The translations under genes and the position numbers were made by a program. Of a stretch of DNA of 64,000 nt, positions 28,673-49,352 are shown piece after piece. Each line of letters begins with the position of its first letter. Within the stretch, counting starts at the first letter, position 1. The notes beneath the pieces are model-generated. The model searched no databases, had not been told where the DNA came from, and was given only the letters and a program-made list of their open reading frames with translations. Source of the DNA: Paracoccus sp. S3-43 (GTDB lineage: Bacteria > Pseudomonadota > Alphaproteobacteria > Rhodobacterales > Rhodobacteraceae); NCBI RefSeq assembly GCF_029027965.1, contig NZ_CP119082.1, forward strand, positions 2,961,001-3,025,000, written 5' to 3'.

Positions 28673-29302
28673 TTATGTCATGGGCAGGGCCTGCCAGGCC
28701 GCCATGAAGTCGCGGGCCCGGTCGCCGGTGACGGACGCGTCCTGGCCGGGCCGATACAGCGCCGATCCCAGCCCGAAGCCGTCCGCGCCCGCCTTGCGAT
28801 AGCCCGCCATCGCCGTCGGGTCGATGCCGCCCACGGGCAGCAGCCGGGCATCGCGCGGCAAAACGGCGCGCATCGCCTTGACGGCGGCGGGGGGGATCAT
28901 CTCGGCCGGGAACAGCTTCAGGGCGGCGGCCCCGGCCTCCAGCGCGGCGAAGGCCTCGCTGACGGTGCCGACGCCGGGGCAATAGGCGAGGCCCAGCCGC
29001 CCGGCCTCGGAGGCGACGCGGGGGTCGAAGTTCGGGGCGATGATGATCCGGCCCCCGGCATCGGACACCGCGACGACCTGTTCGGGCCGCAGCACCGTGC
29101 CCGCGCCGACGATCGTACCGGGGGCGGCGGCGGCCATCCGGGCGATGCTGTCCAGCGGGTCGGGCGAATTCAGCGGCACCTCCAGGATCGTGAAGCCCGC
29201 GCCGGTCAGCGCGGCGGCGGTCGCGGCGGCCTCGTCCGGGCGCAGCCCGCGCAGGATCGCGATCAGCGGATTGGCGGCGAAGGCGGTGTCGAAATCGGTC
29301 AT
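28673..29302 (-). CDS. dgoA: 2-dehydro-3-deoxy-6-phosphogalactonate aldolase
   Basis: A 209-residue class I KDPG/KDPGal aldolase that splits 2-keto-3-deoxy-6-phosphogalactonate into pyruvate and glyceraldehyde 3-phosphate. Motifs: NPLIAILRGLRP (phosphate/Arg), TILEVPLNSPDP (catalytic Glu; LNSP is the galactonate-type version), VGAGTVL and ALKLFPAE with the Schiff-base Lys. ATG 29302 overlaps the dgoK stop by 4 nt. It is the last gene of the sugar cluster. Confidence 0.9.
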   Translation of the reverse strand: MTDFDTAFAANPLIAILRGLRPDEAAATAAALTGAGFTILEVPLNSPDPLDSIARMAAAAPGTIVGAGTVLRPEQVVAVSDAGGRIIIAPNFDPRVASEAGRLGLAYCPGVGTVSEAFAALEAGAAALKLFPAEMIPPAAVKAMRAVLPRDARLLPVGGIDPTAMAGYRKAGADGFGLGSALYRPGQDASVTGDRARDFMAAWQALPMT

Positions 29303-30177
29303 GAAAGCCCCTTGATCCGGGCGATTTCCCAAAGCCCCCGCCGCGCCATGCCCGGCGGCGCGATAACGGCGGCGATGCCCATCATGTCGAGGGCCATGCG
29401 ATAGCGCGCCGCCAGATCGCCGCGCCCGATGATCGTGACGGGGCCGCTTGCGTCCCGCGCGCCCTGGGCGACCTCGTCCCCGATCAGCAGGCCGGACAGA
29501 TAGTCCGCGATATGGTCCGGCGCCAGCCGGTCCATCAGCGCCAGTGTCCGGGCGCTGAAGATGCGCCCCAGCAGCGCCCCGTCCCGCCGCCCGGCCTCGA
29601 CCCCACGGCGGAAGGCGTCCTCGCGGCCCGGCCCCGGCTGGATCAACCGGCCCAGGATCGAATGGTCCCGCAGGGCGGCAAAGACTTCGCCGGTCATGAC
29701 CGTGCGGAAGGCGGCGATCCGCCCGCCCTCGGCCCGCGCCCATTTGCTGTGGGTGCCGGGCAGGACGAACAGCCCGTCCGCGCCCCCGCCCGCCAGATGG
29801 CCGATGATCTCGGTCTCTTCGCCGCGCATCACGTCGGGCGCGGGGCCGTCGGGATCGCTGACCGCGCCGGTCACGAAATGGATGCCGTCATGCAGCGTCA
29901 GGCTGTCCGCCAGCGCGGCGGCGTCCAGCGGCAGCGGCAGGTAAGGCGTCTCGACCCAGCCGTTGCGGCTGGTGATCATGCCCGAGGCGATCACCGGCGC
30001 GCCGTCCAGCCAGCCGCCGATCCGGTCTTGCAGGGCCTGGCGGAACCCTCCGGGCACGGCGCTTGCGGCCAGGATGCCGGGGCCGTCGCTGGCGGTTTCC
30101 AGCACCTCGCCCGCCGCGCCCATGCGCCAGGCGCGGAACGAGGTCGTGCCCCAGTCGATGCCGATCAGCGCGGTCAT
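29299..30177 (-). CDS. dgoK: 2-dehydro-3-deoxygalactonokinase
   Basis: A 292-residue ASKHA-fold kinase that phosphorylates 2-keto-3-deoxygalactonate. It starts MTALIGIDWGTTSFRAW (phosphate loop), with GMITSRNGWVETPYLPLP, DVMRGEETEIIG and LPGTHSKWA as family markers. It is overlapped by galM upstream and dgoA downstream (4 nt each). With DgoA it forms the C6 branch of the pathway. Confidence 0.92.
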   Translation of the reverse strand: MTALIGIDWGTTSFRAWRMGAAGEVLETASDGPGILAASAVPGGFRQALQDRIGGWLDGAPVIASGMITSRNGWVETPYLPLPLDAAALADSLTLHDGIHFVTGAVSDPDGPAPDVMRGEETEIIGHLAGGGADGLFVLPGTHSKWARAEGGRIAAFRTVMTGEVFAALRDHSILGRLIQPGPGREDAFRRGVEAGRRDGALLGRIFSARTLALMDRLAPDHIADYLSGLLIGDEVAQGARDASGPVTIIGRGDLAARYRMALDMMGIAAVIAPPGMARRGLWEIARIKGLS

Positions 30178-31142
30178 CGGCTGAACCTGTAGGCCGTGTG
30201 GTGGCGATAGGTCTGGCCGGGCCGCAGGATCGCGTCTGGGAAATCGGGGCGGTTCGGCGCATCGGGCCAGCCCTGCGTCTCCAGCGCCACCCCGGCAAAG
30301 CGGCCATAGCGCCGCCCGTCAAGTCCCGGCAACCCGTCGAAATGCGCGCCGTCATAGACCTGCAACCCCGGCTGGTCCGTCTCGATCCGCATCCGCAGCC
30401 CCGTCTGTCCCGTCAGTTCCCCGACGATCCGAGGGGGGACAGGCCCGTCCGACAGGCAGAAATTATGGTCGTATTCCCCCGGCGCGATGGCGCGGCCTTG
30501 CCGGAAATCGAAACGCGTGCCCTGAACCGGCGCCGTGCCCGGCAGCGGGATCAGATCGCCGTCCACCGGCAGAAAGCGATCCGCCGCAATGCGCAGCCGG
30601 TGGCTTCGCACATCGCCGCTGTCGTCCAGGGTGAAATAGCCGTGATGCGCCAGGTTGCAGGGCGTCGGCGCATCCGTGGTGGCCGACAGATCGACGATCA
30701 GCGCGCCATCGCCCAAGGCGATGTCCGCGCGAATGGCCATGGCGCCGGGAAAGCCCATCTCCCCGTCCGGCAGGGTCAGCGTCAGGGTGGCGCGGTCCTC
30801 TCGCGCGTCCGCGACCGTCCAGATGTGCCAATTCGTCCCGCGCGATCCGCCATGCAGCGTGTGGCGGCCGCGGAAATTCGGATCGGTGCGGTATTCCCGC
30901 CCGTCCAGCGTGAAGCACGCCCCGCCGATACGATTCGCAAAGCGCCCGACGATGGCGCCCAGATAGAGGCCGTCGCCCAGGTAATCCGCCGGGACGGGAC
31001 AGCCCAGCACCAGCGGATGGTCAACGCCCTCCATCCGCAAGTCCTGCACGGTCGCGCCCAGGGTCAGCAGTTGCGCGGTCAGCCCGCCGCCGGTCAGCGT
31101 CAGCCGATCCACGCGGCGTCCGTCGGGCAGGGTCCAGGTCAC
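30174..31142 (-). CDS. galM: aldose 1-epimerase (galactose mutarotase)
   Basis: A 322-residue beta-sandwich epimerase interconverting alpha and beta anomers of aldoses. Motifs: YLGAIVGRFANRI, RHTLHGGSRGTNWHIW with the substrate His, NLAHHGYFTLDD with the catalytic His, and FAGVALETQGWPDAPN with the catalytic Glu. The start is GTG 31142, overlapping the lactonase stop by 4 nt (GTGA). It would supply the beta anomer used by the dehydrogenase in the same cluster. Confidence 0.9.
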   Translation of the reverse strand: MTWTLPDGRRVDRLTLTGGGLTAQLLTLGATVQDLRMEGVDHPLVLGCPVPADYLGDGLYLGAIVGRFANRIGGACFTLDGREYRTDPNFRGRHTLHGGSRGTNWHIWTVADAREDRATLTLTLPDGEMGFPGAMAIRADIALGDGALIVDLSATTDAPTPCNLAHHGYFTLDDSGDVRSHRLRIAADRFLPVDGDLIPLPGTAPVQGTRFDFRQGRAIAPGEYDHNFCLSDGPVPPRIVGELTGQTGLRMRIETDQPGLQVYDGAHFDGLPGLDGRRYGRFAGVALETQGWPDAPNRPDFPDAILRPGQTYRHHTAYRFSR

Positions 31143-31978
31143 AGGATCACACCCGGTTCGGCCAGGCCGGTCAGGCCCGGTTCCAGGCGATAGGTCTTGC
31201 CTTGGGCCGGGTCGGGATCGGTGATTCCCTGGCGCGCGGTCGTGACCAGCAGATGCGTCAGATCCGGCCCCCCGAAGGCCGGGCAGGAGGAATGCCGCCC
31301 GCCGACCGGCAGGTGATGGGTGCGGTTGCCCTCCGCATCGAAGCGCATCACCGCCCCCTGCCCCCAGATCGCGCAGCAGAACCCGCCATCCGCGTCGATC
31401 ACCGCGCCATCGGGCGACCAGCCCTGCACCGTCAGGTCCAGATAGACCCGAGGCTCGCCCACCGGCCAGCCATCGCCGTCCAGCGACTGCCGCCAGATGA
31501 TGCCGCGATGCGTGTCCGCATAATGCGCCCCCGCGCCATCGGGCGAAAAGCAGATCGCGTTGGGGATGGTGATGCCGTCCACCAGCTTGCGGACCTCGCC
31601 CCGGTAATAGCGATAGATCGCGCCCGCGCCCGGCTGCGCCTTCTTGCCCATGGTGCCGAACCAGAACCCGCCCCGCCGGTCGGCACGGCCATCGTTGGAC
31701 CGGGTGACGGCGTTGTCGGCCTCGACCGCAGCCACATCCGTCAGCGCGCCATCGGCCAGCGACAGGACCGCCAGCCCGGTCTCGGTGGCGACCAGCAGCC
31801 GGTCCCGGTCGATCCAGCCCGCGGCCGAGGCCATGCGGTCGAACCGCCATTCCAGCGGGCCGCTGTCGTCCTGCGACAGCAGCCGGTGGCCGAGGATGTC
31901 GAACCAGAAGAACTGCCGGCGCTCGGGATGCCACAGCGCCCCCTCGCCCAGTTCGCAATGGCGGTGGTCGTGGATCAT
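31139..31978 (-). CDS. SMP-30/gluconolactonase family sugar lactonase
   Basis: A 279-residue six-bladed propeller with a divalent metal site: LGEGALWHPERRQFFWFDIL (Glu ligand), RSNDGRADRRGGFWFGTMG, DGITIPNAICFSPDGAGAHY (Asn) and GWSPDGAVIDADGGFCCAIWG. Family members hydrolyse L-arabinolactone, D-galactonolactone or gluconolactone. Context (galM downstream, 1-dehydrogenase upstream in the cluster) points to galactono- and arabinolactone. The start overlaps the yjfF stop by 4 nt. Confidence 0.87.
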   Translation of the reverse strand: MIHDHRHCELGEGALWHPERRQFFWFDILGHRLLSQDDSGPLEWRFDRMASAAGWIDRDRLLVATETGLAVLSLADGALTDVAAVEADNAVTRSNDGRADRRGGFWFGTMGKKAQPGAGAIYRYYRGEVRKLVDGITIPNAICFSPDGAGAHYADTHRGIIWRQSLDGDGWPVGEPRVYLDLTVQGWSPDGAVIDADGGFCCAIWGQGAVMRFDAEGNRTHHLPVGGRHSSCPAFGGPDLTHLLVTTARQGITDPDPAQGKTYRLEPGLTGLAEPGVIL

Positions 31979-32949
31979 GATACCCCTTTCGCAAGCCGCA
32001 TCTGCGACAGTTTCAGCAGGCCCTTTTGCAGCAGGATGAAGGCCAGCAGAAGGATCCCGATGACGATCTTGGTCCACCAGGAGGACAGGCTGCCGTCGAA
32101 GACGATATAGGTCTGGATCAGCCCCATGGTCAGGACGCCGACGAAGGTGCCGACCATATAGCCCGCCCCCCCGGTCAGCAGCGTGCCGCCGATCACCACG
32201 GCGGCGATGGCCGTCAGTTCCGTCCCCACCGTCGCCAGCGAATAGCCCGACCCGGTATAGATCGAGAAGACGATCCCCGACAGCCCGGCCATCGCGCCGG
32301 AAAAGGCATAGACCAGCACCGTGGTGCGCCCCTGCCGCACGCCCATCAGCCGCGCCGCGGCCTCGCCCCCGCCCAGGGCATAGACGGATGCGCCGAAGCG
32401 GGTCTTGTGCGCGACGATCATGCCCAGGACGAAGGTGGCGACCATCACCATGCCGATCAGCCGCAGCCGCCCCTTGCCCGGCATCAGCCAATAGAGCGAT
32501 TGCAGCCAGTCATAGAACGGATGCTGGATCGGCACGGAATCGATCGACAGGATATAGGCCGCGCCGCGCGCCAGGAACATCCCCGCCAGCGTGACGATGA
32601 AGGCGGGCATGGCCAGCCGGTCGATCAGAAAGCCCATGCCCGCCCCGAAGGCCGTGGTCAGCGCCAGCAGCAGCGCGAAGACCGCCAGCGGGTGCAGCGA
32701 GGTGTCGCGCAGCAGCACGGCGATGAAGACCCCGGAAAAGGCGATCACCGATCCCACCGACAGGTCGATGCCGCCCGACAGGATCACCAGCGTCATGCCG
32801 ACCGCGACGATGCCCAGATAGGCGTTGTCGGTCAGCAGGTTGCCAATGACTCGGGTGGACAGGATGTTCGGGAATTGCAGCCAGAATACCGCATAGGCCA
32901 GCAGGAAGATGCCGATGGTCACATACAGGGGAAGCGCGCGGGTGTTCAT
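31975..32949 (-). CDS. yjfF: sugar ABC transporter permease YjfF
   Basis: A 324-residue permease of the ribose/galactose class with about nine membrane segments. The class signature lies in [27 protein letters not shown], with [13 protein letters not shown] and ELTAIAAVVIGGTLLTGGAGY later. ATG 32949 overlaps the ytfT stop by 4 nt. With YtfT it forms the heterodimeric channel of the YtfQRT-YjfF importer, described in E. coli for galactofuranose. Confidence 0.9.
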   Translation of the reverse strand: MNTRALPLYVTIGIFLLAYAVFWLQFPNILSTRVIGNLLTDNAYLGIVAVGMTLVILSGGIDLSVGSVIAFSGVFIAVLLRDTSLHPLAVFALLLALTTAFGAGMGFLIDRLAMPAFIVTLAGMFLARGAAYILSIDSVPIQHPFYDWLQSLYWLMPGKGRLRLIGMVMVATFVLGMIVAHKTRFGASVYALGGGEAAARLMGVRQGRTTVLVYAFSGAMAGLSGIVFSIYTGSGYSLATVGTELTAIAAVVIGGTLLTGGAGYMVGTFVGVLTMGLIQTYIVFDGSLSSWWTKIVIGILLLAFILLQKGLLKLSQMRLAKGVS

Positions 32950-33962
32950 GCCTGCCTCCGAAGCGCGGCCTCGCGCCCGGCGCGGTGGCTGTCGCGCCAC
33001 AGCCGCCATTCGGCGCTGATGCGCGGCGATTGCAGCACCAGGATCACCAGCACCAGCCCGGCCTTGATGATGAGGTTGTATTCCGAGGGAAAGCCGATCA
33101 GCCGGATGCCGATGCTGATCGTGGTGATGATCAGCGCGCCGATCACCGAGGCGGCGATCGAGAACCGCCCGCCCAGCAGGGAATTGCCGCCGATCACCAC
33201 CGCCAGGATCGCGTCAAGCTCCAGCCACAGCCCGGCATTGTTGGCATCCGCGCCGCGAATGTCGGCGGTGACGATCAGCCCGGCCAGGGCCGCGCACAGC
33301 CCGGACGCCACATAGACCGCGATCAGCAGCACCGTGGCGTTGACCCCGGCAAGCGCGCTGGCGCGGCGGTTGATGCCGATCGCCTCGACCAGCAGGCCAA
33401 GCGAGGTGCGGCGCATCAGGACCGCCGTGGCGATGGCGGTGGCGATCCAGATCCAGGTGGGCACCGGCAGGCCCAGAACCGCGCCCGACCCGATCCATGC
33501 GAAACCGGGATCGGTGAAGGTGAGGATCCGCCCCTCGGTGATCAGTTGCGCGATGCCGCGCCCCATGGTCATCAGGATCAGCGTGGCGACGAAGGGCTGG
33601 ATGCCGACAATCGCGACAAGCGTGCCGTTCCACAGCCCCGCCATTGCGCCCGCGCCCAGGGCGAGGATCAGCCCGGCGGGCAGGCCCCAGCCCGCCGCCA
33701 CGGCGGATGCCGCGACCGCGCCGCAGATCGCCATGATCGTGCCCACCGACAGGTCGATGCCGCGCGTGGCGATCACCAGCGTCATGCCCACCGCCAGAAG
33801 CGCAACGGGGGCAGAGCGTTTCAGCACATCGATCACCGGCCCGACCAGCCGCCCGTCGTTCATCTGGATATTGAGAAAGGCCGGATAAAAGACCGTCACC
33901 ACCGCGACCAGGGCGGCCAGCGCGATCAGTTGCGGGGCAAGGCGTTTCAGCATCTGCATCAC
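32946..33962 (-). CDS. ytfT: sugar ABC transporter permease YtfT
   Basis: A 338-residue permease, homologous to but distinct from YjfF: APVALLAVGMTLVIATRGIDLSVGT, GIQPFVATLILMTMGRGIAQLITEG and ELDAILAVVIGGNSLLGGRFS. Roughly nine membrane helices. It overlaps ytfR upstream and yjfF downstream by 4 nt each, so the three are stoichiometrically coupled. Its hydrophilic C-terminus (RLWRDSHRAGREAALRR) is cytoplasmic. Confidence 0.9.
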   Translation of the reverse strand: MMQMLKRLAPQLIALAALVAVVTVFYPAFLNIQMNDGRLVGPVIDVLKRSAPVALLAVGMTLVIATRGIDLSVGTIMAICGAVAASAVAAGWGLPAGLILALGAGAMAGLWNGTLVAIVGIQPFVATLILMTMGRGIAQLITEGRILTFTDPGFAWIGSGAVLGLPVPTWIWIATAIATAVLMRRTSLGLLVEAIGINRRASALAGVNATVLLIAVYVASGLCAALAGLIVTADIRGADANNAGLWLELDAILAVVIGGNSLLGGRFSIAASVIGALIITTISIGIRLIGFPSEYNLIIKAGLVLVILVLQSPRISAEWRLWRDSHRAGREAALRRQA

Positions 33963-35452
33963 GCGGCCCTCTCGGTGGCGGCGATGGCGCCCATGATGCG
34001 GTTCGGCGCGATCTGGTCTCCGGTCAGTTCCGCGACATGGCGGCGGTCGCGCAGCACGATCACCCGGTCGGACACGGCGATCAGCTCTTCGATTTCGCTG
34101 CTGATGACCAGCAGCGACATGCCCTGTTCCACAAGCTCATGGATCAGCCGGACGATTTCGGCGTGCGCGCCCACGTCGATGCCGCGCGTCGGTTCGTCCA
34201 GGATCAGGAAGCGCGGGTTCATCGCCAGCCAGCGGGCCAGCACCACCTTCTGCTGGTTGCCGCCCGACAGTTCGCCGATGCGCTTTTCCCGGCCCGAGGT
34301 GCGGATGTCCAGCCGCGCGATATAGTCGTCGGCCAGCCGGTTCTGCTCGGCGCGCGGGATGGGCCGCGCCCAGCCGCGCCGGGCTTGCAGGCCCAGGATG
34401 ATGTTCTCGCGCACCGACAGGTCGGCGACGATGCCGTCGGTCTTGCGCTCCTCGGGGACGAAGCCGAAGCCCGCCGCGATGGCCGAACGCGGGCTGCGCA
34501 GATCCAGCGGCCCCGTCTGGTCGCGCGCCGCGCCGGAATGGGCGTTCTTCAGCCCGAACAGCAGTTCGGCGCTTTCCGTCCGGCCCGATCCCAGCAGCCC
34601 CGCCAGGCCCACGACCTCGCCCTGCCCCACCGCCAGATCGAAGGGTTCGACCGCGCCGCGGCGGCCGATGCCGCGAAACTCCAGCATCGGCGGGCGGGGA
34701 CCGCGCGACCGGGCCTGATGGCTGGTCGCGGCTTCCAGTTCCCGCCCCAGCATGTGTTCGATCAGGCGCACCCGGTTCAGGCTGGCGGTGTCCTCGGTCA
34801 CGATCCTGCGGCCGTTGCGCAGGACGGTCACCCGGTCGGTCAGGTCGAACACCTGATCCAGGAAATGCGACACGAACACGATGCCCAGGCCGCGTTCGCG
34901 AAGGCCGCGCACCACGTCGAAGACCATCCGCACCTCGGCCGCGTCAAGGCTGGCGGTCGGTTCGTCCAGAATCAGCACCTTGCCCGACAGGGCGACCGCG
35001 CGGGCGATGGCGACGATCTGCTGGATGGCCACCGAATAGGCGCCAAGGTCGCGGTCCACGTCCAGCGACAGCCCGTATTCGGCCAGCATCGCGCGGGCCT
35101 GCGCCCGCATCGCGCGGGTCTGGATCAGGCCCCATCGGCGCGGTTCGCGCCCGAACATCAGGTTCTGCGCCACAGTCAGGTTCGGCAGCAGGTTGACCTC
35201 TTGATAGACCGTGCCGATGCCCAGATCCTGAGCCTCGACCGTCGATCGCGGGTCGATGGGCGCGCCCTCCAGCGTCATGGCGCCGCCGTCGCGGCGATAG
35301 GCGCCGGTCAGGCATTTGATCAGCGTCGACTTGCCCGCGCCGTTTTCGCCCAGCAGGGCATGGACCTCGCCCGCGCGCAGGTCGAAATCGACGCCGTCCA
35401 GCGCGAGCGTGCCCGGAAATGTCTTGGTCAGCGACCGGATGGTCAGCAGCAT
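33959..35452 (-). CDS. ytfR: sugar ABC transporter ATP-binding protein YtfR
   Basis: A 497-residue tandem ATPase (two ABC domains). Domain 1 has Walker [11 protein letters not shown]-loop TVYQEVNLLPNLTVAQNLM and [12 protein letters not shown]. Domain 2 is degenerate at Walker A (GLLGSGRTE) but has [16 protein letters not shown] and [14 protein letters not shown], as in all RbsA/MglA proteins. I chose ATG 35452, preceded by AAGGGGG; ATG 35467 would add 5 residues. It follows ytfQ after a hairpin. Confidence 0.92.
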   Translation of the reverse strand: MLLTIRSLTKTFPGTLALDGVDFDLRAGEVHALLGENGAGKSTLIKCLTGAYRRDGGAMTLEGAPIDPRSTVEAQDLGIGTVYQEVNLLPNLTVAQNLMFGREPRRWGLIQTRAMRAQARAMLAEYGLSLDVDRDLGAYSVAIQQIVAIARAVALSGKVLILDEPTASLDAAEVRMVFDVVRGLRERGLGIVFVSHFLDQVFDLTDRVTVLRNGRRIVTEDTASLNRVRLIEHMLGRELEAATSHQARSRGPRPPMLEFRGIGRRGAVEPFDLAVGQGEVVGLAGLLGSGRTESAELLFGLKNAHSGAARDQTGPLDLRSPRSAIAAGFGFVPEERKTDGIVADLSVRENIILGLQARRGWARPIPRAEQNRLADDYIARLDIRTSGREKRIGELSGGNQQKVVLARWLAMNPRFLILDEPTRGIDVGAHAEIVRLIHELVEQGMSLLVISSEIEELIAVSDRVIVLRDRRHVAELTGDQIAPNRIMGAIAATERAA

Positions 35453-35474
35453 GACTGCCCCCTTCATCGTGGAT

Positions 35475-35499
35475 GCCGGGCCGCGACAGGCGGCCCGGC
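35475..35499 (-). promoter_or_regulatory. GC hairpin between ytfQ and ytfR
   Basis: A perfect 10-bp inverted repeat GCCGGGCCGC / GCGGCCCGGC with a 5-nt loop starts 8 nt after the ytfQ stop and ends 23 nt before ytfR. No T-run follows. Hairpins here usually protect the binding-protein mRNA end and lower expression of the distal genes. Confidence 0.65.
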
Positions 35500-35506
35500 A
35501 AGGCGA

Positions 35507-36466
35507 TCAATAGCCCAGACCCTTGCGGCGTTCGTATTCGCCCGCCGGATCGTCGGCTTGGGTGAACAGCTTCGATTCGGTCTGGATGAATTTCGGCGGC
35601 GTGGTGCCGTCCTTCCAATAGGCCGCAAGGGCGTCGAAGGCTGGCCCCGCCATGTTGGGCGTCAGTTCGACCGTGGCATTCGCCTCGCCCGCCGCCATCG
35701 CCTGGAACAGATCCGGCACCCCGTCGATGGAGACGACCAGGATATCCGTGCCCGGTTTCAGCCCGGCCTCCTTGATGGCCTGGATCGCGCCCACGGCCAT
35801 GTCGTCGTTATGGGCGTAAAGCGCGCAGATGTCCTTGCCGCCGTTCTCGGCCTGGATGAAGCTCTCCATCACCTCCTTGCCCAGAGCGCGGGTGAAATCG
35901 CCGGTCTGGCTGCGCACGATGGTCAGGTTCGGATGGTCCTTGATGGCGTTTTCAAAGCCGGTCTTGCGGTCGATGGCGGGGCTGGATCCGGTGGTGCCCT
36001 GCAACTCGACGATCCGGCATTCGCGGTCGCCGACCTCTTTCACCAGCCATTCGCCCGCGACCTCGCCCTCATGGACCAGGTTTGACCCCACGGCGGTCAG
36101 ATACAGGTCGTCGGAACTGTCCACCTGCCGGTCCAGCAGGACGACCGGGATTTCAGCCTCCTTGGCTTCCTGCAAGACCGAATCCCAGCCGGTGGCGACG
36201 ACCGGGGCCAGCAGGATCGCGTCCACGCCCTGCGCGACAAAGGACCGGATCGCGGCGATCTGGTTTTCCTGCTTCTGCTGCGCGTCCGAGAATTGCAGCT
36301 GGATGCCGCGTTCCTCGGCCTGTTGCCGGGTCAGCGTGGTTTCCGCCGCCCGCCAGCCGGATTCGGAACCGATCTGCGAAAAGCCCACGGTCTCGCCTTC
36401 GGCCAGGGCGCCGGTGGCGGTGACCGCCAGAAGTGCTGCGGTCCCCAGCAGGGTCTTGATGGTCAT
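35507..36466 (-). CDS. ytfQ: sugar ABC transporter substrate-binding protein YtfQ-like
   Basis: A 319-residue periplasmic binding protein (type I fold). A signal peptide spans 1-22 (ATGALAEG). The mature protein starts ETVGFSQIGSESGWRAAETTL, with Arg and Trp of the YtfQ pocket, then GVDAILLAPVVATGWDSVL, PVVLLDRQVD, ALYAHNDDMAVGAIQAI and DILVVSIDGVPDLF. YtfQ in E. coli binds furanose galactose; here arabinose or galactose are likely. ATG 36466 has GGGAGG upstream. Confidence 0.9.
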   Translation of the reverse strand: MTIKTLLGTAALLAVTATGALAEGETVGFSQIGSESGWRAAETTLTRQQAEERGIQLQFSDAQQKQENQIAAIRSFVAQGVDAILLAPVVATGWDSVLQEAKEAEIPVVLLDRQVDSSDDLYLTAVGSNLVHEGEVAGEWLVKEVGDRECRIVELQGTTGSSPAIDRKTGFENAIKDHPNLTIVRSQTGDFTRALGKEVMESFIQAENGGKDICALYAHNDDMAVGAIQAIKEAGLKPGTDILVVSIDGVPDLFQAMAAGEANATVELTPNMAGPAFDALAAYWKDGTTPPKFIQTESKLFTQADDPAGEYERRKGLGY

Positions 36467-36488
36467 GGTAATCCTCCCGTTGCGTGAA

Positions 36489-36514
36489 ATCGCCCGGCCC
36501 TCATGCCGGGCGAT
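36489..36514 (-). promoter_or_regulatory. GC hairpin between the semialdehyde dehydrogenase gene and ytfQ
   Basis: ATCGCCCGGC / GCCGGGCGAT, a perfect 10-bp stem with a 6-nt loop, begins 11 nt after the stop of the 36526 gene and ends 22 nt before the ytfQ start. It could be a partial terminator that splits the cluster into two expression units, or an RNA processing or stabilising point. Confidence 0.6.
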
Positions 36515-36525
36515 GGTGCGGGACG

Positions 36526-38040: not shown

Positions 38041-38051
38041 AGCTCGTATCC

Positions 38052-38963
38052 TCAGAAATGGAAATCCGCGACGGTGTTCCGCCGCCCGAGGGTGAAGGCA
38101 TCGGCCACAAGAACCATGGGCGCAAGGTCCGTTTCGCGCATTCCCGCGGCAATCAGCCTTGCCATGCGTGCATAAAGCGCGGGATATTCGCCCATGATGT
38201 CATCGGCGCCCTGCACATGCCGACCGTCGATCTCCAGCCGGTTGCCGCCCATCCGCAGCGCCAGCGCGCCGCCGTCGGTCTGGAACTCCATGTCCCAGGT
38301 CTGCGGGCCTTCCTGGCGGAAATCGAAATCCGCCTCGATCCGCTGGCTGAATTGCAGCCGCGCGGCGATGGGGGCCTGCCGGTTCGCTGGGAAATCCAGA
38401 TCGGCCGACAGCAGGCGCACGGGCTGGGGCAGGATCTCGGTCAGGATCGACAGGGCGTTGATGCCGGGATCGAAGACCCCCATGCCGCCCGCCTCGAAGA
38501 TCCACTCCTGGCCGGGATGCCATTTGCGCACGTCCTCGCGCCAGGTGATGCGGCCTTCATGGATCGTCCTGCCCGCCAGCCAGTCGCGCGCGGCGGCCAC
38601 CCCCATCGCCATGCGCGAATGCCAAGTGGCATAGATCGTGACCCCCTGCCGTTCGGCCAGATCGCACAGGGCATGAACCTCGGCCAGGGTGGTGCCGGGG
38701 GGCTTTTCCAGCATCAGGTGACGGCCCGCGCGCAGCACCGCCTCCGCCACGGCAAAGCGCGGCACGGGGGGCAGGCACAGGCTGACCGTGCCGATGTCGG
38801 GGCGCGCGTCCAGCATGGCGCTGATCTCGGTGAAGGCCTCGACCCCGTCCACCGTGCCGTGGCGGCTGACGGTCGCGGCCAGATCCCAGTCGGGGCTGGC
38901 GTTCAGCGCGGGCACATGCTGGTCCAGGGCGATCTTGCCGATGCCCGCAAGCGCGATCTTCAT
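38052..38963 (-). CDS. D-galactose / L-arabinose 1-dehydrogenase (Gfo/Idh/MocA family)
   Basis: A 303-residue NAD(P)-dependent oxidoreductase. The Rossmann start is MKIALAGIGKIALDQHVPAL, the catalytic-type EKPPGTTLAEV follows, and the C-terminal domain has WREDVRKWHPGQEWIFEAGG and GVFDPGINALSILTE. The last two blocks closely match the Pseudomonas galactose dehydrogenase as I recall it. Members oxidise galactose, fucose or L-arabinose at C1 to the lactone. ATG 38963 overlaps the dehydratase stop by 1 nt. Confidence 0.87.
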   Translation of the reverse strand: MKIALAGIGKIALDQHVPALNASPDWDLAATVSRHGTVDGVEAFTEISAMLDARPDIGTVSLCLPPVPRFAVAEAVLRAGRHLMLEKPPGTTLAEVHALCDLAERQGVTIYATWHSRMAMGVAAARDWLAGRTIHEGRITWREDVRKWHPGQEWIFEAGGMGVFDPGINALSILTEILPQPVRLLSADLDFPANRQAPIAARLQFSQRIEADFDFRQEGPQTWDMEFQTDGGALALRMGGNRLEIDGRHVQGADDIMGEYPALYARMARLIAAGMRETDLAPMVLVADAFTLGRRNTVADFHF

Positions 38964-40705
38964 CAGTGGCTGTCCTTTCCGACCGGATTGCCCCGGCAAC
39001 CCTTGAGGAAATCCAGATCCGCGCCGGTATCGGCCCCCTCGACATGGGCCTGATGCAGCCAGGCATAGCCGCTGGCGGGCTGGTCGGGCAGCGGCCGCCA
39101 TTCGGCCAGCCGCGCGGCCAGTTCGGCGTCTGGAATGTCCAGATGCAACCGCCGGTTCGGCACGTCCAGGTCGATCATGTCGCCGTCGCGCACCACCGCC
39201 AGCGGGCCGCCCGCCGCCGCCTCGGGACTGGTATGCAGCACCACCGTGCCATAGGCGGTGCCCGACATGCGCGCGTCGGAGATCCGCACCATGTCGGTGA
39301 TGCCCTTGCGCAGCACCTTGGGCGGCAGGCCCATATTGCCCACCTCGGCCATGCCCGGATAGCCCTTGGGACCGCAGTTCTTCATCACCATGACGCAGGT
39401 TTCGTCGATGTCGAGATCCTCGTCCTCGATCCGGGCCTTGTAGTCGTCGATATCCTGAAACACGACCGCGCGGCCGCGATGGACCAGCAGATGCGGGCTG
39501 GCGGCCGAGGGCTTCAGCACCGCCCCCCTGGGCGCCAGGTTGCCGCGCAGCACGGCGATGCCGCCCTGTTCGGTCAGCGGCCGGTCAGCGGGCAGGATCA
39601 CGTCCTCGTTCCAGTTCACCACGTCGCGAACCTCGTCCCAGATCGTCATGCCGCTGACGGTCAGCGCGTCCTTGTGCAACTGCCCGGCCTCGCCCAGCCG
39701 CTTCAGGACCACCGGCAGCCCGCCCGCATAGAAGAACTCCTCCATCAGGTATTGCCCCGAGGGCATCAGGTTGACGATGGTCTGCACGTCGCGCCCGCAG
39801 CGGTCCCAGTCGTCCAGCGTCAGATCGACGCCGACCCGGCCCGCGATGGCCAGCAGGTGGATCACCGCATTGGTGGATCCGCCGACGGCGCCGTTGGTGC
39901 GGATGGCGTTCTCGAACGCCTGCCTGGTCAGGATGTCGCTGGGCTTGAGGTCGTCCTTGACCATCTGCACGATCCGCCGCCCCGAAAGCTGCGCCATCAC
40001 CCGGCGGCGCGAATCCACCGCCGGGATCGCGGCATTGCCAGACAGCGCCATGCCAAGCGCCTCGGCCATGGACGCCATGGTCGAGGCCGTGCCCATGGTG
40101 TTGCAGGTGCCGGTGGACCGGGACATGCTGGCCTCGGCCTCCAGAAACTCCTCCTGCGTCATCTCGCCGGCCTTCACGGCCTCGCTGAACCTCCACAGAT
40201 GGGTGCCCGACCCGACCCGCTCGCCCCGGAAATAGCCGTTCAGCATCGGCCCCCCCGTCACCACGATGGACGGAATGTCGGTCGAGGCCGCCGCCATCAG
40301 CAGCGACGGCGTGGTCTTGTCGCAACCGACCAGCAGGACCGCCCCGTCGATCGGCTGGCCGCGCATCGTTTCCTCGATCGCAAGCGCGGCGAGGTTGCGG
40401 AACATCATCGCGGTGGGGCGGAAGGTGTTTTCCGATGCCGAAAACACCGGCACCTCGACCGGGAAGCCGCCGGCCTCCCACACGCCCGCCTTCACCTTTT
40501 CGGCCAGTTCGCGCAGATGGCCGTTGCAGGGCGTCAGGTCCGACCAGGTGTTCAGGATGCCGATCACCGGGCGTCCGTCGAACAGGTCGTGCGGATAGCC
40601 CTGATTCTTCATCCAGCCGCGATGATAGATCGTATCGCGCGAGGTGCCCCCGTACCAATGCTGGGAACGAAGCTGGCGGGGCCAAGGGGCGGGTGCGAAG
40701 GTCAT
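38963..40705 (-). CDS. IlvD/Edd-family sugar-acid dehydratase (L-arabonate / galactonate type)
   Basis: A 580-residue iron-sulfur dehydratase that turns an aldonate into its 2-keto-3-deoxy acid. Visible are NTWSDLTPCNGHLRELAEKV (first Cys), VLLVGCDKTTPSLLMAAAS (second Cys and catalytic Lys region), STGTCNTMGTAST (third Cys) and ISDARMSGTAYGTVVLHTSPEA. The SQHWYGGTSRDTIYHRGWM start is characteristic of the sugar-acid branch, not of IlvD. Context suggests L-arabonate and perhaps D-galactonate or D-fuconate. Confidence 0.88.
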   Translation of the reverse strand: MTFAPAPWPRQLRSQHWYGGTSRDTIYHRGWMKNQGYPHDLFDGRPVIGILNTWSDLTPCNGHLRELAEKVKAGVWEAGGFPVEVPVFSASENTFRPTAMMFRNLAALAIEETMRGQPIDGAVLLVGCDKTTPSLLMAAASTDIPSIVVTGGPMLNGYFRGERVGSGTHLWRFSEAVKAGEMTQEEFLEAEASMSRSTGTCNTMGTASTMASMAEALGMALSGNAAIPAVDSRRRVMAQLSGRRIVQMVKDDLKPSDILTRQAFENAIRTNGAVGGSTNAVIHLLAIAGRVGVDLTLDDWDRCGRDVQTIVNLMPSGQYLMEEFFYAGGLPVVLKRLGEAGQLHKDALTVSGMTIWDEVRDVVNWNEDVILPADRPLTEQGGIAVLRGNLAPRGAVLKPSAASPHLLVHRGRAVVFQDIDDYKARIEDEDLDIDETCVMVMKNCGPKGYPGMAEVGNMGLPPKVLRKGITDMVRISDARMSGTAYGTVVLHTSPEAAAGGPLAVVRDGDMIDLDVPNRRLHLDIPDAELAARLAEWRPLPDQPASGYAWLHQAHVEGADTGADLDFLKGCRGNPVGKDSH

Positions 40706-40712
40706 GATAGCC

Positions 40713-41702
40713 TCAGAGTGTGGCGACGGCAACGGGGATGCCGCCGTCCGGCTGCTGGTCCAGCGGGTTCGACAAGGGCAAACCCAGGGCCGGGGATTCG
40801 ATCTGGAAGACATCGCCCGCCTGCGCCTTGACGCCATCGGCGAAGGACAGCGTGGCGGTGCCGAAGAAATGCACATGCACGTCGCCCGGCTGGCGGAACA
40901 GCGCGTATTTGAAATGGTGATGTTCCAAGTTCGCAAGGCTGTGGCTCATGTTCGCCTCGCCCGACAGGAAGGGCTTTTCCCAGATCACCGCGCCGCCGCG
41001 CAGGATCCGGCTGGTGCCCTCGACATGCTGGGGCAGATCGCCGACCAGCATCTCGGGGCCATAGCTTGCCGGACGCAGCTTGGAATGGGCCAGCCACAGG
41101 TAATTGCCGCGTTCGGTCACATGGTCGGAAAACTCGTTCGCCAGGGCAAAGCCCAGCCGGAAGGGCGTGCCGTCCTGGCCGATCAGATAGAGGCCCGCGA
41201 TCTCGGGTTCCTCGCCCGCATCCAGCGCAAAGCCGGGGGACACCAGCGGCGCGCCGGGCGCCACCGCGTTGACGCCGTTGCCCTTGTAGAACCATTCGGG
41301 CTGCACCCCCGCCGCGCCCCCCTGCGGCTTGCCGCCCTCCAGCCCCATGCGGAACATCTTCATGCTGTCGGTCAGCGTCTCGGCATCGGACTTGGCGTGC
41401 ATGGAATTGCGCGTCGAGGCGCTGCCCAGATGGGTCAGCCCGGTGCCGGTCAGGTGCAGATGCGCCGGATCGTCGTGATCCAGCGGCAACAGCACCCGGC
41501 CATCCGCCAGGGCGGCGGCGAGATCCACCGCTTCGCCCTGCCCGCGCGCCGAAACCTCGGCTTTCAGCCCATGCCCTGCGGCGATGGCGGCCTGCGCCAG
41601 ATCGCGGGTGGTCCGCGCGCCGGGCACGATCCAAGCGCCATCGTCGGTCCGTGCGGCGACAGCCCGGTCCACGCCGGGGCTTTTCAGTTGCGACAGAAAC
41701 AT
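40713..41702 (-). CDS. gguC: AraD1/GguC family protein (FAH fold), likely 2-keto-3-deoxy-L-arabonate dehydratase
   Basis: A 329-residue protein of the fumarylacetoacetate hydrolase-like fold. Blocks include LHLTGTGLTHLGSASTRNSMHAK, PEWFYKGNGVNAVAPGAPL, GYEP-like EEPEIAGLYLIGQDG and FALANEFSDHVTERGNY, consistent with a metal-dependent 2-keto acid enzyme. In Agrobacterium gguC follows gguB after chvE-gguA. The family is also called AraD1 and proposed to dehydrate 2-keto-3-deoxy-L-arabonate, which fits the pathway gap here. The enzymatic role is inferred. Confidence 0.82.
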   Translation of the reverse strand: MFLSQLKSPGVDRAVAARTDDGAWIVPGARTTRDLAQAAIAAGHGLKAEVSARGQGEAVDLAAALADGRVLLPLDHDDPAHLHLTGTGLTHLGSASTRNSMHAKSDAETLTDSMKMFRMGLEGGKPQGGAAGVQPEWFYKGNGVNAVAPGAPLVSPGFALDAGEEPEIAGLYLIGQDGTPFRLGFALANEFSDHVTERGNYLWLAHSKLRPASYGPEMLVGDLPQHVEGTSRILRGGAVIWEKPFLSGEANMSHSLANLEHHHFKYALFRQPGDVHVHFFGTATLSFADGVKAQAGDVFQIESPALGLPLSNPLDQQPDGGIPVAVATL

Positions 41703-41705
41703 GGG

Positions 41706-42911
41706 TCAGCCTTGCTTGGTCTTGTTGTAAACGTCGAAGATCACGGCGGCCAGAAGCACCAGCCCCTTGATCACCTGCTGATAGTCGATGCCGATCCCCA
41801 TGATCGACATGCCGTTGTTCATCACGCCCATGATCAGCGCGCCGACCACGACGCCGATGATGCGCCCCGATCCCCCGGCCATCGAGGCGCCGCCAATGAA
41901 GACCGCCGCGATCACGTCCAGTTCGAACCCGACGCCCGCCTTGGGCGTGGCGCTGTTCAGCCGGGCGGTGACGATCATCCCGGCCAGGGACGCCAGCACG
42001 CCCATGTTCACGAAGGTCAGGAATACCAGCCGTTCGGTTCGGATGCCCGACAGCTTCGCCGCCTTGGCGTTGCCGCCAAGCGCATAGATGCGCCGCCCCG
42101 TGGTCGTCGATTCGGTGAAGAAGGCATAGAGCACGATCAGCACCGACATGATCAGCAGCACGTTCGGCAGCCCCCGGAAGCTGGCCAGCTTCCAGCCCAC
42201 GAACAGCAGCGCGATGACGACCACGGCATTGCGCGCCCAGAAGAAGCCCGCGGGTTCCGGGGCGATGCCGAATTCGGCCTCCCTCGCCCGGCCGCGGACG
42301 CCCGCCCAGACGATGGCGATGGCGGCCACGGCGACCAGGATCAGCGCGGTGAAGTTGGGCTTGTCGGGGCCGAATAGGTCGGGGATGAAGCCCGTGGACA
42401 GTGACTGGAAGGACCGCTCGAACGGGCCGATGTTCTGGCCGCCCAGCAGCCACAGCGTCAGCCCGCGAAAGACCAGCATCCCCGCCAGCGTCACGATGAA
42501 GGACGGGATCTTCCAATAGGCGATCCAGTATCCCTGCGCGGCGCCGATCAGTCCGCCGACGACCAGCACCATCGGGATCACCAGCAGCACCGGCAGGTCC
42601 ATCCTGACCAGCAGCATCGACGCCACCGCCCCGGTGAAGGCCGCGACGGATCCCACCGACAGGTCGATATGCCCGGCGACGATCACCAGCAGCATCCCAA
42701 GCGCCATGATGATGACATAGCTGTTTTGCAGGAACAGGTTGGTGATGTTCTGCGCCGACAGGAAATCGACGCCCTGGACGGCGCGCACGATGACGAAGAA
42801 GAACAGCACGATGGCGACCAGGGCCAGCATCATGCCGTTCTCGCGCAGGTGGCTGCCCAGATGGGCGCCGATGCCCGTGGCGGCGGGCTTGTTCGCGTCA
42901 GCCGTGCTCAT
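41706..42911 (-). CDS. gguB: multiple-sugar ABC transporter permease GguB
   Basis: A 401-residue permease, longer than RbsC-type proteins because of extra helices as in XylH/GguB. Signature: [27 protein letters not shown]; also [39 protein letters not shown] and [21 protein letters not shown]. About 12 membrane segments. ATG 42911 overlaps the gguA stop by 4 nt; gguC follows after 3 bp. Confidence 0.92.
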
Positions 42912-44440
42912 GCGGCCTCCCCCTTCATTCCGTCTTGCAGGATCAGGGCCATGATCCGTTCCTGGCTGGCCTGTTCGCGGGTCAGTTCACCGGCGATCCG
43001 GCCCTCGTTCATGACATAGATGCGGTCGCACATGCCCAGCAGTTCGGGCATTTCCGAGCTGATCATGACGACTCCGTGCCCCTGCCCGGCCAGCTCGTTC
43101 ATGATGTTGTAGATCTCGAACTTGGCGCCCACGTCGATGCCGCGCGTGGGTTCGTCCAGGATCAGCACCTTGGGATCGGTGAACAGCCATTTGGACAGCA
43201 CCACCTTCTGCTGGTTGCCGCCCGACAGGTTCACGGCCCGCTGAAAGACCGTGGGGGTGCGGATGTTCATGGCCTTGCGGTATCGTTCCGCTACCTGCTG
43301 TTCGCGCCCCCGCGACAGGACCGTGCCCTTGGCGATGCCTTGCAGGTTCGCCAGCGAGATGTTGCGCAGGATCGGCTCGTCCAGGATCAGGCCCAGAACC
43401 TTGCGGTCCTCGGTCACATAGGCCAGCCCCGCGTCGATGGCCCTGGTGACGGTTGACAAGTCGGGCTTCGCGCCCGCCAGCGTCACCTCTCCGGTGATGT
43501 CTCGGCCATAGCTGCGGCCGAACAGGCTCATGGCGAATTCGGTGCGCCCCGACCCCATCAGGCCCGCGATGCCGACGATTTCGCCCTTGCGCACGGACAT
43601 CGACACGTCGCGGATCACCTGGCGGGGCTGTTCGGGATGCATGACCGACCAGTTCTTCACCTCCATCAGCACCTCGCCGATCTGCGGGATGCGGTCGGGG
43701 TAGCGGTGGGCCATGTCGCGGCCGACCATGTCGCGGATGATCCGGTCCTCGGTGATCTCGCTGCGGTCCAAGGTGGACACGGTGGACCCGTCGCGGATCA
43801 CCGTCACGCGGTCGGCGACGCGGCGGATCTCGTTCAGCTTGTGGCTGATGATGATCTGCGTGACGCCCTGGCTTTTCAGTTCCAGCATCAGGTCCAGCAG
43901 CTTCTGGCTGTCGTTTTCCTGCAACGCGGCGGTCGGTTCGTCCAGGATCAGCAGGCGCACGTTCTTGGCAAGCGCCTTGGCGATTTCCACCAGCTGCTGC
44001 TTGCCGACGCCCAGCTTTTCGACGCGGGTGGTCGGCGCCTCGGTCAGGCCGACCTTCTTCAACAGCGCCTCGGTCTTCTGATAGGCCAGCGGCCAGTTGA
44101 TGATCCCGCCCGTCGCGACCTCGTTGCCCAGAAACAGGTTCTCGGCCACCGACAGCAGCGGCACGAGCGCCAGTTCCTGGTGGATGATGACGATGCCCGC
44201 ATGTTCGCTGTCGCGGATGTCGCGGAACCGCGCGGGCTTGCCGTCATAGAGGATCTCGCCGTCATAGCTGCCATGGGGATAGACGCCCGACAGCACCTTC
44301 ATCAGCGTCGACTTGCCGGCGCCGTTCTCGCCGCAGATGGCGTGGATTTCGCCTTCGCGCACGGACAGGTTCACATCGTTCAGCGCCTTGACGCCGGGAA
44401 ACGTCTTGGTGATGCCCCGCATCTCCAGGATGGCCGTCAT
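42908..44440 (-). CDS. gguA: multiple-sugar ABC transporter ATP-binding protein GguA
   Basis: A 510-residue tandem ATPase of the MglA/XylG type. Domain 1: Walker [46 protein letters not shown] and [11 protein letters not shown]. Domain 2: GLMGSGRTE (degenerate loop), [16 protein letters not shown] and [23 protein letters not shown] 44440 follows GGGGGGAAAAACGCG. It is separated from chvE by a strong hairpin. Confidence 0.93.
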
Positions 44441-44462
44441 CGCGTTTTTCCCCCCTTCGAAA

Positions 44463-44490
44463 CGCGGCCCCGGCACGCGCCGGGGCCGCG
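44463..44490 (-). promoter_or_regulatory. 12-bp perfect GC hairpin between chvE and gguA
   Basis: CGCGGCCCCGGC / GCCGGGGCCGCG, perfect over 12 bp with a 4-nt loop, starts 6 nt after the chvE stop. No T-run follows. The position fits an mRNA-stabilising or attenuating structure that keeps the binding protein in excess over the membrane components. Confidence 0.75.
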
Positions 44491-44496
44491 CAGGCA

Positions 44497-45552
44497 TCAC
44501 TTCAACTGGTCTTCGGTATAGTAACCGGAATCGACCAGAACCTCTTTCCAGTTCGACTTGGTCACCGGCACCGGCTCCAGCAGATAGGACGGCACGACCT
44601 TGACGCCGTTGTCATAGGTTTCGGTGTCGTTGATCTGCGGCTCGGTCCCTTTCAGCACGGCGTCCACCATGCCGACGGTGACTTTCGCCAGTTCGCGGGT
44701 GTCCTTGAAGATGGTCGAATACTGTTCGTCCGCCTCGATGGATTTCACCGACTGAACCTCGGCGTCCTGGCCGGTGACGATCGGCATCTGCATGTCGCCC
44801 GACCCGTAGCCCACGCCTTTCAGCGACGACAGGATGCCGATGGACAGTCCGTCATAGGGCGACAGCACCCCATGCACCTGCTTGTCGCCATAGTTCGAGG
44901 ACAGAAGGTTATCCATCCGCGACTGCGCCACGGCCGGATCCCAACGCAGGGTGCCGACCTTTTCCATGCCGGTCTGGCCCGACCCGATCACGATGGACCC
45001 GTCGTCGATCAGCGGCTGCAGGACCGACATCGCGCCGTCATAGAAGAAGAAGGCGTTGTTGTCGTCGGGGCTGCCGCCGAACAGTTCGACGTTCCAGGGC
45101 TTCACGTCGGGGAAACGTTCTTTCAGCCCGTCGACCAGCGTGGTCGCCTGCTGGACGCCGACCTTGAAGTTGTCGAAGGTTGCGTAATAGTCCACATGTT
45201 CCGACCCGCGGATCAGGCGGTCATAGGCAATCACCTTGATGTCGGCGGCGGCGGCGTTTTCCAGCGCGTTCGACAGCGTGGTGCCGTCGATGGCCGCGAT
45301 CACCAGCACGTTCACGCCCTTGGTGATCATGTTTTCCACCTGGGCCAGCTGGTTCGGAATGTCATCCTCGGCATATTGCAGGTCGGTGTCGTAGCCGGCT
45401 TCCTGCAACTGCTTGACCATGTTGTTGCCGTCGTCGATCCAGCGGGCGGACGATTTCGTCGGCATCGCGATGCCGATGGTTTCGGCCATGGCGCCGGTCG
45501 CCAGCCACGAGACCCCGATCGCCAGCGCGACCGCAGCGGTTCTGAACGTCAT
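44497..45552 (-). CDS. chvE: periplasmic multiple-monosaccharide-binding protein ChvE
   Basis: A 351-residue type I binding protein. The signal peptide spans 1-23 (ATGAMAE). The mature start [19 protein letters not shown], then [71 protein letters not shown] and [16 protein letters not shown] match ChvE. In Agrobacterium ChvE binds galactose, arabinose, glucose and others and also feeds chemotaxis and sensing. ATG 45552 has GGGGAGG upstream. It is the first gene of the cluster. Confidence 0.93.
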
Positions 45553-49335: not shown

Positions 49336-49352
49336 CCGTCCCCCGCTGGTCA

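Follow-up and report, generated by a model that had tools for sequence, protein, structure and literature searches.

Two described pathways and one published proposal are among the known systems closest to the gene cluster analyzed here. Route II of Azospirillum, the oxidative L-arabinose pathway to 2-oxoglutarate, employs a Gfo/Idh dehydrogenase, an SMP-30 lactonase, an IlvD/Edd-type dehydratase, a keto-acid dehydratase, and an aldehyde dehydrogenase (ALDH) of the NADP+ type, together with the ChvE-GguAB transporter and a LysR regulator; these genes adjoin on A. argentinense plasmid p4. The De Ley-Doudoroff pathway of D-galactose runs through a dehydrogenase, a lactonase, a dehydratase, DgoK, and DgoA. 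The dgoK1 locus of Sinorhizobium meliloti is known from galactose genetics. For Roseobacter litoralis, which grows on D-fucose, a joint route for galactose, arabinose, and fucose was proposed in 2011, in which a single cluster supplies the arabonate dehydratase and the galactose dehydrogenase for both sugars, along with DgoK-DgoA (PMC3141670). Here we describe a cluster of 15 consecutive minus-strand genes in a stretch of 64,000 nucleotides (nt) from Paracoccus sp. S3-43 (NZ_CP119082.1, positions 2,961,001 to 3,025,000), hereafter the window.

By family or proposed role, the window cluster has counterparts of all of the Route II components listed above; unlike the window, A. argentinense p4 has a dihydrodipicolinate-synthase-family gene in the place of AraD1 and, over an 18.9 kb stretch, no DgoK or DgoA. 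The cluster also holds predicted counterparts of the five De Ley-Doudoroff enzymes and of all four subunits of the GafABCD (YtfQRT-YjfF) furanose transporters. In R. litoralis the genes are divided between two clusters and AraD1 is not listed (PMC3141670), whereas the window carries the trunk and both exits in one run. Each enzyme and the shared galactose/arabinose route are already in print, and the locus is a variant of known pathways. Among the matches listed from the open-licence literature, no description of a dual-exit operon as such was found, though one may exist.

A probable shared trunk and two exits in one run of genes

We consider it likely that the cluster is one transcription unit for sugars with the D-galacto/L-arabino configuration, namely L-arabinose, D-galactose, and probably D-fucose, with a shared oxidative trunk and two exits. 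ChvE-GguAB would import pyranose forms of the sugars and GafABCD furanose forms, and GalM would interconvert anomers. Either sugar would then be converted to its 2-keto-3-deoxy acid by a single set of enzymes, namely a Gfo/Idh dehydrogenase, an SMP-30 lactonase, and a [2Fe-2S] dehydratase, each substrate being a predicted one. The five-carbon acid would exit via AraD1 and the NADP-type ALDH to 2-oxoglutarate, and the six-carbon acid via DgoK and DgoA; a split by chain length is plausible. Such a cluster would be a compact natural gene set for using two plant cell-wall sugars together, and its products would feed both lower glycolysis and the tricarboxylic acid cycle.

Genome-wide counts support this reading. 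Within the window genome, in which the window lies on a single 3.22 Mb contig, there is one dehydrogenase match (E ≤ 1e-30), one AraD1 match (E ≤ 1e-30), and one match for this type of dehydratase (E ≤ 1e-100). A galactokinase-domain match is absent from that genome (3 of 125 genomes of the genus have one, two of them above the cut-off, and 10 of 14 controls were positive), as is an L-arabinose isomerase match; galT, araB, araD, and the enolase-type galactonate dehydratase were outside the search. Among 125 genomes of the genus (cut-offs: AraD1 1e-30, dehydrogenase 1e-30, GafA 1e-60, DgoK 1e-3), 65 have AraD1, 94 the dehydrogenase, 66 GafA, and 113 DgoK. In 26 of the 125, which we call fused genomes, the genes for AraD1, the dehydrogenase, and DgoK point in the same direction, and all 26 have a single dehydrogenase match and a single dehydratase of at least 80% identity.

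A sequence-only reading of this DNA, made before any database search, had already proposed a dual-substrate pathway. The counts above, together with the occurrence of the same trunk kind in loci that have AraD1 alone or DgoK alone, support this shared-trunk, two-exit proposal, which we take to be the best reading though not a new one. The interpretation as a whole is supported in part. It omitted D-fucose, a likely third substrate, and the second, furanose-type transporter.

Trunk enzymes resemble relatives active on both sugar series

Across 575 aligned residues, the window dehydratase shares 88.2% identity with the Rhizobium leguminosarum enzyme (PDB 5J83), whose cluster cysteines Cys59, Cys127, and Cys200 and Ser480 are retained. 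According to a review, the R. leguminosarum enzyme acts best on D-fuconate, then on L-arabinonate and D-galactonate (PMC9795676). Homology to 5J83 points to the galactonate dehydratase step of the De Ley-Doudoroff pathway, and the protein scores above the cut-off of model NF009559 for L-arabinonate dehydratase, the corresponding step of the oxidative L-arabinose pathway (Table 1). The best PDB match of the dehydrogenase is 4EW6, a D-galactose 1-dehydrogenase (E 3e-98), which suggests galactose 1-dehydrogenase activity; L-arabinose 1-dehydrogenase (6JNK/7CGQ) is also among its best PDB matches. The lactonase is a member of the SMP-30/gluconolactonase family. In engineered Pseudomonas putida, the arabinose enzymes AraA and AraB of Burkholderia ambifaria served as galactose dehydrogenase and lactonase (PMC6927180; PMC11219438).

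Judged from these published relatives, the trunk would belong to the promiscuous kind. The promiscuity that the sequence-only reading called for thus agrees with published activity of close relatives (PMC9795676, PMC11219438, PMC6927180), but it is not new, because that activity is in print and a route shared by galactose and arabinose had been put forward by 2011 (PMC3141670).

Exits swap on one trunk kind within the genus

We sorted the 81 dehydratase copies of at least 80% identity in the genus by their neighbors (within 16 kb, same strand): 26 have AraD1 and DgoK ("both"), 38 AraD1 alone, 12 DgoK alone, and 5 the dehydrogenase only. The count of 26 is a lower bound, because contig ends may hide neighbors. 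Gene order was compared in all 12 DgoK-only stretches, 25 "both" stretches plus the window (26), 20 of the 38 AraD1-only stretches, and 3 of the 5 others.

The DgoK-only loci (L061-L072) represent the De Ley-Doudoroff pathway on the same trunk kind, in the order chvE-gguAB-dehydratase-dehydrogenase-dgoK-dgoA-SMP30-galM, with galM reversed in three of the 12. Their dehydratases are 84-88% identical to that of the window; unlike the window, these loci lack AraD1, ALDH, and GafABCD and have a different LysR, and AraD1 is found nowhere in the 12 genomes. AraD1-only loci have the order (chvE-gguAB-)araD1-dehydratase-dehydrogenase-(ALDH)-(gafABCD), and of the 20 stretches 8 include SMP-30 and 11 include galM. 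"Both" loci show several orders: that of the window, one that lacks gaf (L057-L060), and one in which dgoK-dgoA-SMP30-galM comes ahead of gaf (L055, L056). The trunk kind is maintained across related species while the exits swap (AraD1, DgoK, or both). We note that one AraD1 locus, on P. aminovorans plasmid p_II (L003), has AraD1, dehydratase, dehydrogenase, and ALDH without chvE-gguAB, and is flanked by a stretch of nitrous-oxide reductase and sensor/regulator genes and by a type VI secretion cluster.

The full window arrangement recurs on plasmid p429813 of P. alcaliphilus DSM 8512 (NZ_CP067125.1; L046), where the public record annotates the same 15-gene order and the divergent LysR; this version is plasmid-borne and its proteins are 67-92% identical to those of the window. 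A chance assembly of annotations is ruled out, because the gene order is conserved in other species. Compact chvE-gguAB-araD1-dehydratase-dehydrogenase-ALDH-dgoK-dgoA loci occur in Rhizobium paknamense, Rhizobium spp., and Ciceribacter selenitireducens, with a similar one in Tabrizicola oligotrophica; as in the window, both exits sit on one trunk, but there is no gafABCD match, and an SMP-30 match lies within the stretch only in Tabrizicola. The claim that it is unusual to find all of these genes in a single unit was therefore overstated and we rejected it, given the 26 of 125 genomes in the genus and the further units in Rhizobium, Ciceribacter, and Tabrizicola.

These configurations bear on a rival explanation, in which the cluster is an L-arabinose operon with a pentose-only trunk, and dgoK-dgoA share its transcript but none of its enzymes, burning D-galactonate or D-galactose that comes from other enzymes. 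DgoK is not beside 38 of the 64 dehydratase copies in an AraD1 context (some near contig ends, e.g., G103 and G077), 78 of the 125 genomes have a DgoK match lying apart from matches to all three other queries (divergent paralogues counted), and the window regulator is of the ara-locus type, all as this explanation would have it. Against it, a second dehydrogenase match occurs in none of the 26 fused genomes, and there is no galactokinase match in the window genome. The same dehydratase family is also present in DgoK-only operons, at 84-88% identity, and close relatives are published as active on both series (PMC9795676). We regard a pentose-only trunk as very unlikely.

How the fused loci arose is partly visible in gene trees. 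On a dehydratase tree of 60 rows the "both" label requires 7 changes, of which well-supported branches force just 2. On a DgoK tree of 38 rows, 22 fused DgoK proteins form one group, L055 and L056 fall among the DgoK-only rows, and those of L048 and L049, which occupy the same locus slot and are 37-38% identical to that of the window, sit on long branches on the DgoK-only side. At least two DgoK lineages, perhaps four, have therefore joined AraD1 loci; the upper figure is unsure because of the long branches. The low identity of DgoK at that slot in L048 and L049 suggests in-place replacement by another DgoK lineage.

AraD1, aldehyde dehydrogenase, DgoK, and DgoA

AraD1 has no Pfam match and no PDB sequence match, and belongs to NCBIfam family NF040903. 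On the basis of that family name and its context, we propose that it is the 2-keto-3-deoxy-L-arabinonate dehydratase. When its profile was compared with those of two FAH-family proteins, the probabilities were 0.3% and 2.9%, which say little against FAH membership because the profile is shallow (Neff 1.5); a protein 95% identical to AraD1 is labelled FAA hydrolase family by its source. A 2019 paper describes FAH-type L-keto-acid dehydratases, one of them strictly specific for the L-pentose acid (PMC6336799), to which AraD1 may be related.

We assume that AraD1 would not use the six-carbon acid. Alternatively, AraD1 and ALDH might handle either keto acid, or the product from D-fucose. The split would then not follow chain length and DgoK would be a side branch. 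In favor of this view, the R. leguminosarum dehydratase is reported to prefer D-fuconate over its other substrates (PMC9795676), 2-keto-3-deoxy-fuconate has no C6 hydroxyl on which DgoK could act, and R. litoralis grows on D-fucose (PMC3141670). Against this, a Paraburkholderia FAH/MhpD-type enzyme, a possible ortholog of AraD1, is reported to be strict for the L-pentose keto acid (PMC6336799), a specificity that may or may not extend to comparison with hexose keto acids, and the 12 DgoK-only genomes manage without AraD1, which is therefore dispensable on that branch. We find this alternative unlikely, and keep to a separate exit for each chain length.

The ALDH accompanies AraD1 in 37 of 46 AraD1 loci (23 of 26 "both" and 14 of 20 AraD1-only) and is present in none of the 12 DgoK-only loci. 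We infer its role as 2-oxoglutarate semialdehyde dehydrogenase, the identity given to it by the sequence-only reading, from family and context: membership of the aldehyde dehydrogenase family (PF00171) held up, and the specific name is taken up again below. It scores far under the cut-offs of NF042993 and NF052305. A grouping with the structurally characterized A. brasilense enzyme 5X5T (74 bits) was not adopted, given the scores against 3V4C (801 bits) and 1EYY (464 bits).

DgoK and the 2-keto-3-deoxy-6-phosphogalactonate aldolase DgoA both score above the cut-offs of their families (Table 1). DgoK has one full-length match in the window genome and one divergent match missing the first 62 profile positions. 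The divergent DGOK-family gene covers profile positions 62-280, in a setting unrelated to the cluster, near a YmdB-like gene, a citrate-transporter-like gene, and an ArgP-like regulator. A low-scoring second DgoK match (below 150 bits, four apparent fragments excluded) occurs in 22 of the 125 genomes of the genus, and 19 of the 22 fall in the 26 fused genomes (Fisher 6e-14, relatedness uncorrected).

Association of DgoK with the trunk beyond the genus

In a class sample of 289 genomes (cut-offs: AraD1 1e-60, DgoK 1e-40, dehydrogenase 1e-50, dehydratase 1e-200), AraD1 occurs in 21, DgoK in 60, the dehydrogenase in 12, and the dehydratase in 38. DgoK is present in 21/21 AraD1 genomes and 12/12 dehydrogenase genomes (background 60/289), and in 26 of the 38 dehydratase genomes, with 12 lacking it. 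Within the genus, DgoK is found in 91 of 94 genomes with the dehydrogenase versus 22 of 31 without. In 5 of the 21, AraD1 and DgoK share a strand and are no more than about 10.6 kb apart: the window genome, three genomes of another genus, with the order chvE-gguAB-araD1-dgoK-dgoA-galM, and G357. In a scan of a genome collection, DgoK was within the flank of at least 11 of 80 AraD1 loci, out of 556 confirmed ones, and divergent in one (L141); 11 of 80 is a lower bound, because the 10 kb flanks stop short of dgoK in the gene order of the window. The DgoK-flanked loci include Tabrizicola oligotrophica, Ciceribacter selenitireducens, Rhizobium paknamense, and several Rhizobium sp. A stretch on a plasmid of Roseinatronobacter sp. 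S2 (L103) has a dihydrodipicolinate-synthase-family gene after the dehydrogenase and no annotated AraD1, and may represent another, third type of exit from this trunk.

This co-occurrence raises the possibility that DgoK-DgoA is mainly a safety valve: a promiscuous trunk would turn any galactose into a six-carbon keto acid that AraD1 cannot process, and the kinase and aldolase would avert a dead end that is toxic or wastes carbon, even in cells that do not live on galactose. The co-occurrence counts above fit this idea, as does the recruitment of fused-locus DgoK from at least two lineages, possibly four. The same pattern is equally expected if galactose is a plain nutrient, however; the counts ignore relatedness and genome size, and the 12 dehydratase genomes of the class sample without DgoK, along with three dehydrogenase genomes of the genus, are exceptions to it. 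We judge a safety valve somewhat unlikely. A broader view, which we entertain as a tentative possibility, is a stereochemistry-based chassis: a promiscuous import and oxidation trunk for every D-galacto/L-arabino sugar (pyranose and furanose; five-carbon, six-carbon, and 6-deoxy), with chain-length-specific exits that are gained, lost, or replaced independently, and the fused operon as a remedy for a dead end. DgoK-DgoA would then be near-obligatory for owners of the dehydrogenase because the trunk unavoidably makes the six-carbon keto acid. Exit swapping and the association of dehydrogenase with DgoK are the parts worth following: one genus with one trunk kind and three exit configurations offers a ready comparison, which can address whether enzyme promiscuity forces cells to retain a second exit.

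Returning to the dual-substrate operon that we favor, several observations weigh against it. Several fused genomes, not that of the window, carry IlvD/Edd relatives of 46-58% identity (among the matches listed), and these extra proteins could serve one of the sugar acids. The dehydrogenase of DgoK-only loci is just 49-52% identical to that of the window, and the enzyme may therefore be tuned per sugar. Five of the 125 genomes (G005, G034, G067, G102, and G113) hold two dehydrogenases, one on the AraD1 side and one on the DgoK side; separate trunks are therefore also used in the genus. Regarding the exits, the ALDH scores 96.9 bits with the NCBIfam 2-oxoglutarate semialdehyde dehydrogenase model, whose cut-off is 770, and 9 of the 46 AraD1 loci lack it; 2 of the 65 AraD1 genomes in the genus lack DgoK; and the divergent DGOK-family gene lies elsewhere in the window genome (C1:1489179-1489802; L002; L109, about 6799-7821). 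GafA, which is absent from the 12 DgoK-only loci, is encoded at another site in 8 of the 12 genomes and is therefore not strictly tied to AraD1. Finally, the one-sided Fisher tests of the class sample (AraD1-DgoK, p = 1.8e-16; dehydrogenase-DgoK, p = 2.5e-9) are uncorrected for relatedness.

Transport and regulation

All three subunits of ChvE-GguAB score above their NCBIfam cut-offs. For GafABCD this holds for GafA and GafD; GafB and GafC fall below (Table 1), but the same models score best for them, and the system looks built like a furanose transporter. GafA is 66% identical over 295 aligned columns to E. coli YtfQ (2VK2), whose reported ligands are D-galactofuranose and L-arabinose (PMC10191376). 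The gafABCD genes are positioned between the trunk genes and galM-dgoK-dgoA, and the cluster thereby ties a furanose transporter to galactose genes; a 2023 survey reports no direct gaf link to D-galactose catabolic genes (PMC10191376). We note tandem chvE-like genes at the upstream end of L036, L038, L039, L041, L042, L043, and L069, at 95-98% and 76-78% identity to the window ChvE in the six fused loci and 81% and 75% in L069.

Pairing of lysR with chvE was possible in 45 loci. The LysR protein is 64-92% identical to that of the window in 30 of these, which belong to the "both" and AraD1-only classes (the window apart). Identity falls to 31-44% in the 12 DgoK-only loci and to 34-35% in L055 and L056, two "both" loci. 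The window operon therefore carries an ara-type regulator, which presumably responds to an inducer. An alignment of 31 loci, the window included, whose lysR is more than 60% identical to that of the window reveals a conserved block in the lysR-chvE gap at about 45635-45666 (CGATAT...TCATTTTAC), a candidate operator/promoter.

Gene spacing and features of the window

The 15 genes, all present with the identities claimed by the sequence-only reading, run from the ATG of chvE (ending at 45552) to the stop of dgoA (at 28673), in the transcription order chvE, gguA, gguB, araD1, L-arabinonate dehydratase, Gfo/Idh dehydrogenase, NADP-type ALDH, gafA, gafB, gafC, gafD, SMP-30 lactonase, galM, dgoK, and dgoA, the last at the 3' end.

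Table 1. Coordinates of the cluster and its regulatory region in the window
Feature	Position	Strand	Evidence or remark
LysR-type regulator, divergent, heads cluster	45675..46619	+	Pfam HTH_1 and LysR_substrate
lysR-chvE intergenic region	45553..45674	-	candidate operator/promoter; alignment of 31 loci
chvE, multiple monosaccharide-binding protein	44497..45552	-	NF040907 555 bits, cut-off 460
gguA (mmsA), sugar ATP-binding cassette (ABC) ATPase	42908..44440	-	NF040905 866 bits, cut-off 810; alternative start possible at 44497/44500
gguB (mmsB), sugar ABC permease	41706..42911	-	NF040906 542 bits, cut-off 450
araD1 (gguC), proposed 2-keto-3-deoxy-L-arabinonate dehydratase, five-carbon exit	40713..41702	-	NF040903 526 bits, cut-off 340
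Predicted L-arabinonate/D-galactonate (IlvD/Edd) dehydratase, shared trunk	38963..40705	-	NF009559 954 bits, cut-off 882; PDB 5J83
Predicted Gfo/Idh/MocA L-arabinose/D-galactose 1-dehydrogenase, shared trunk	38052..38963	-	PDB 4EW6, 6JNK/7CGQ matches
Aldehyde dehydrogenase (NADP+), proposed 2-oxoglutarate semialdehyde dehydrogenase	36526..38040	-	PF00171; PDB 3V4C, 1EYY
gafA (ytfQ), furanose-binding protein	35507..36466	-	NF041827 575 bits, cut-off 510
gafB (ytfR), ABC ATPase	33959..35452	-	NF041861 810 bits, slightly below cut-off 850
gafC (ytfT), ABC permease	32946..33959	-	NF041862 419 bits, below cut-off 535
gafD (yjfF), ABC permease	31975..32949	-	NF008630 456 bits, cut-off 363
SMP-30 family sugar lactonase, shared trunk	31139..31978	-	PF08450 213 bits
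galM-type aldose 1-epimerase	30174..31142	-	PF01263 246 bits
dgoK, 2-keto-3-deoxygalactonokinase, six-carbon exit	29299..30177	-	PF05035 301 bits, cut-off 25
dgoA, 2-keto-3-deoxy-6-phosphogalactonate aldolase, six-carbon exit	28673..29302	-	NF006600 261 bits (longer frame), cut-off 207; PDB 2V81 best

Overlaps of 1-4 nt, described earlier as the rule, are seen at 8 of the 14 junctions, with three gaps of at most 11 nt and three of 54-59 nt; this spacing depends on the start codons chosen among the alternatives. Toward the 5' end, chvE/gguA has a gap of 56, gguA/gguB an overlap of 4, gguB/araD1 a gap of 3, and araD1/dehydratase a gap of 7. Next come an overlap of 1 (dehydratase/dehydrogenase), gaps of 11 (dehydrogenase/ALDH), 59 (ALDH/gafA), and 54 (gafA/gafB), and an overlap of 1 (gafB/gafC), followed by overlaps of 4 at each of gafC/gafD, gafD/SMP-30, SMP-30/galM, galM/dgoK, and dgoK/dgoA. 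The spacing is compatible with a single transcript across the 15 genes. Between 28000 and 46700, promoter-like consensus matches (2 versus a shuffle mean of 1.6) and terminator-like ones (5 versus 7.1) show no excess, and Rfam and tRNA scans of the window gave no matches.

On the minus strand beyond the cluster, a polyamine-type (PotABCD-like) ABC transporter set occupies 46597-50511, just past lysR, and a 230-residue protein with a 3'-5' exonuclease domain related to ribonuclease D is encoded at 27248-27940, 732 nt downstream of dgoA.

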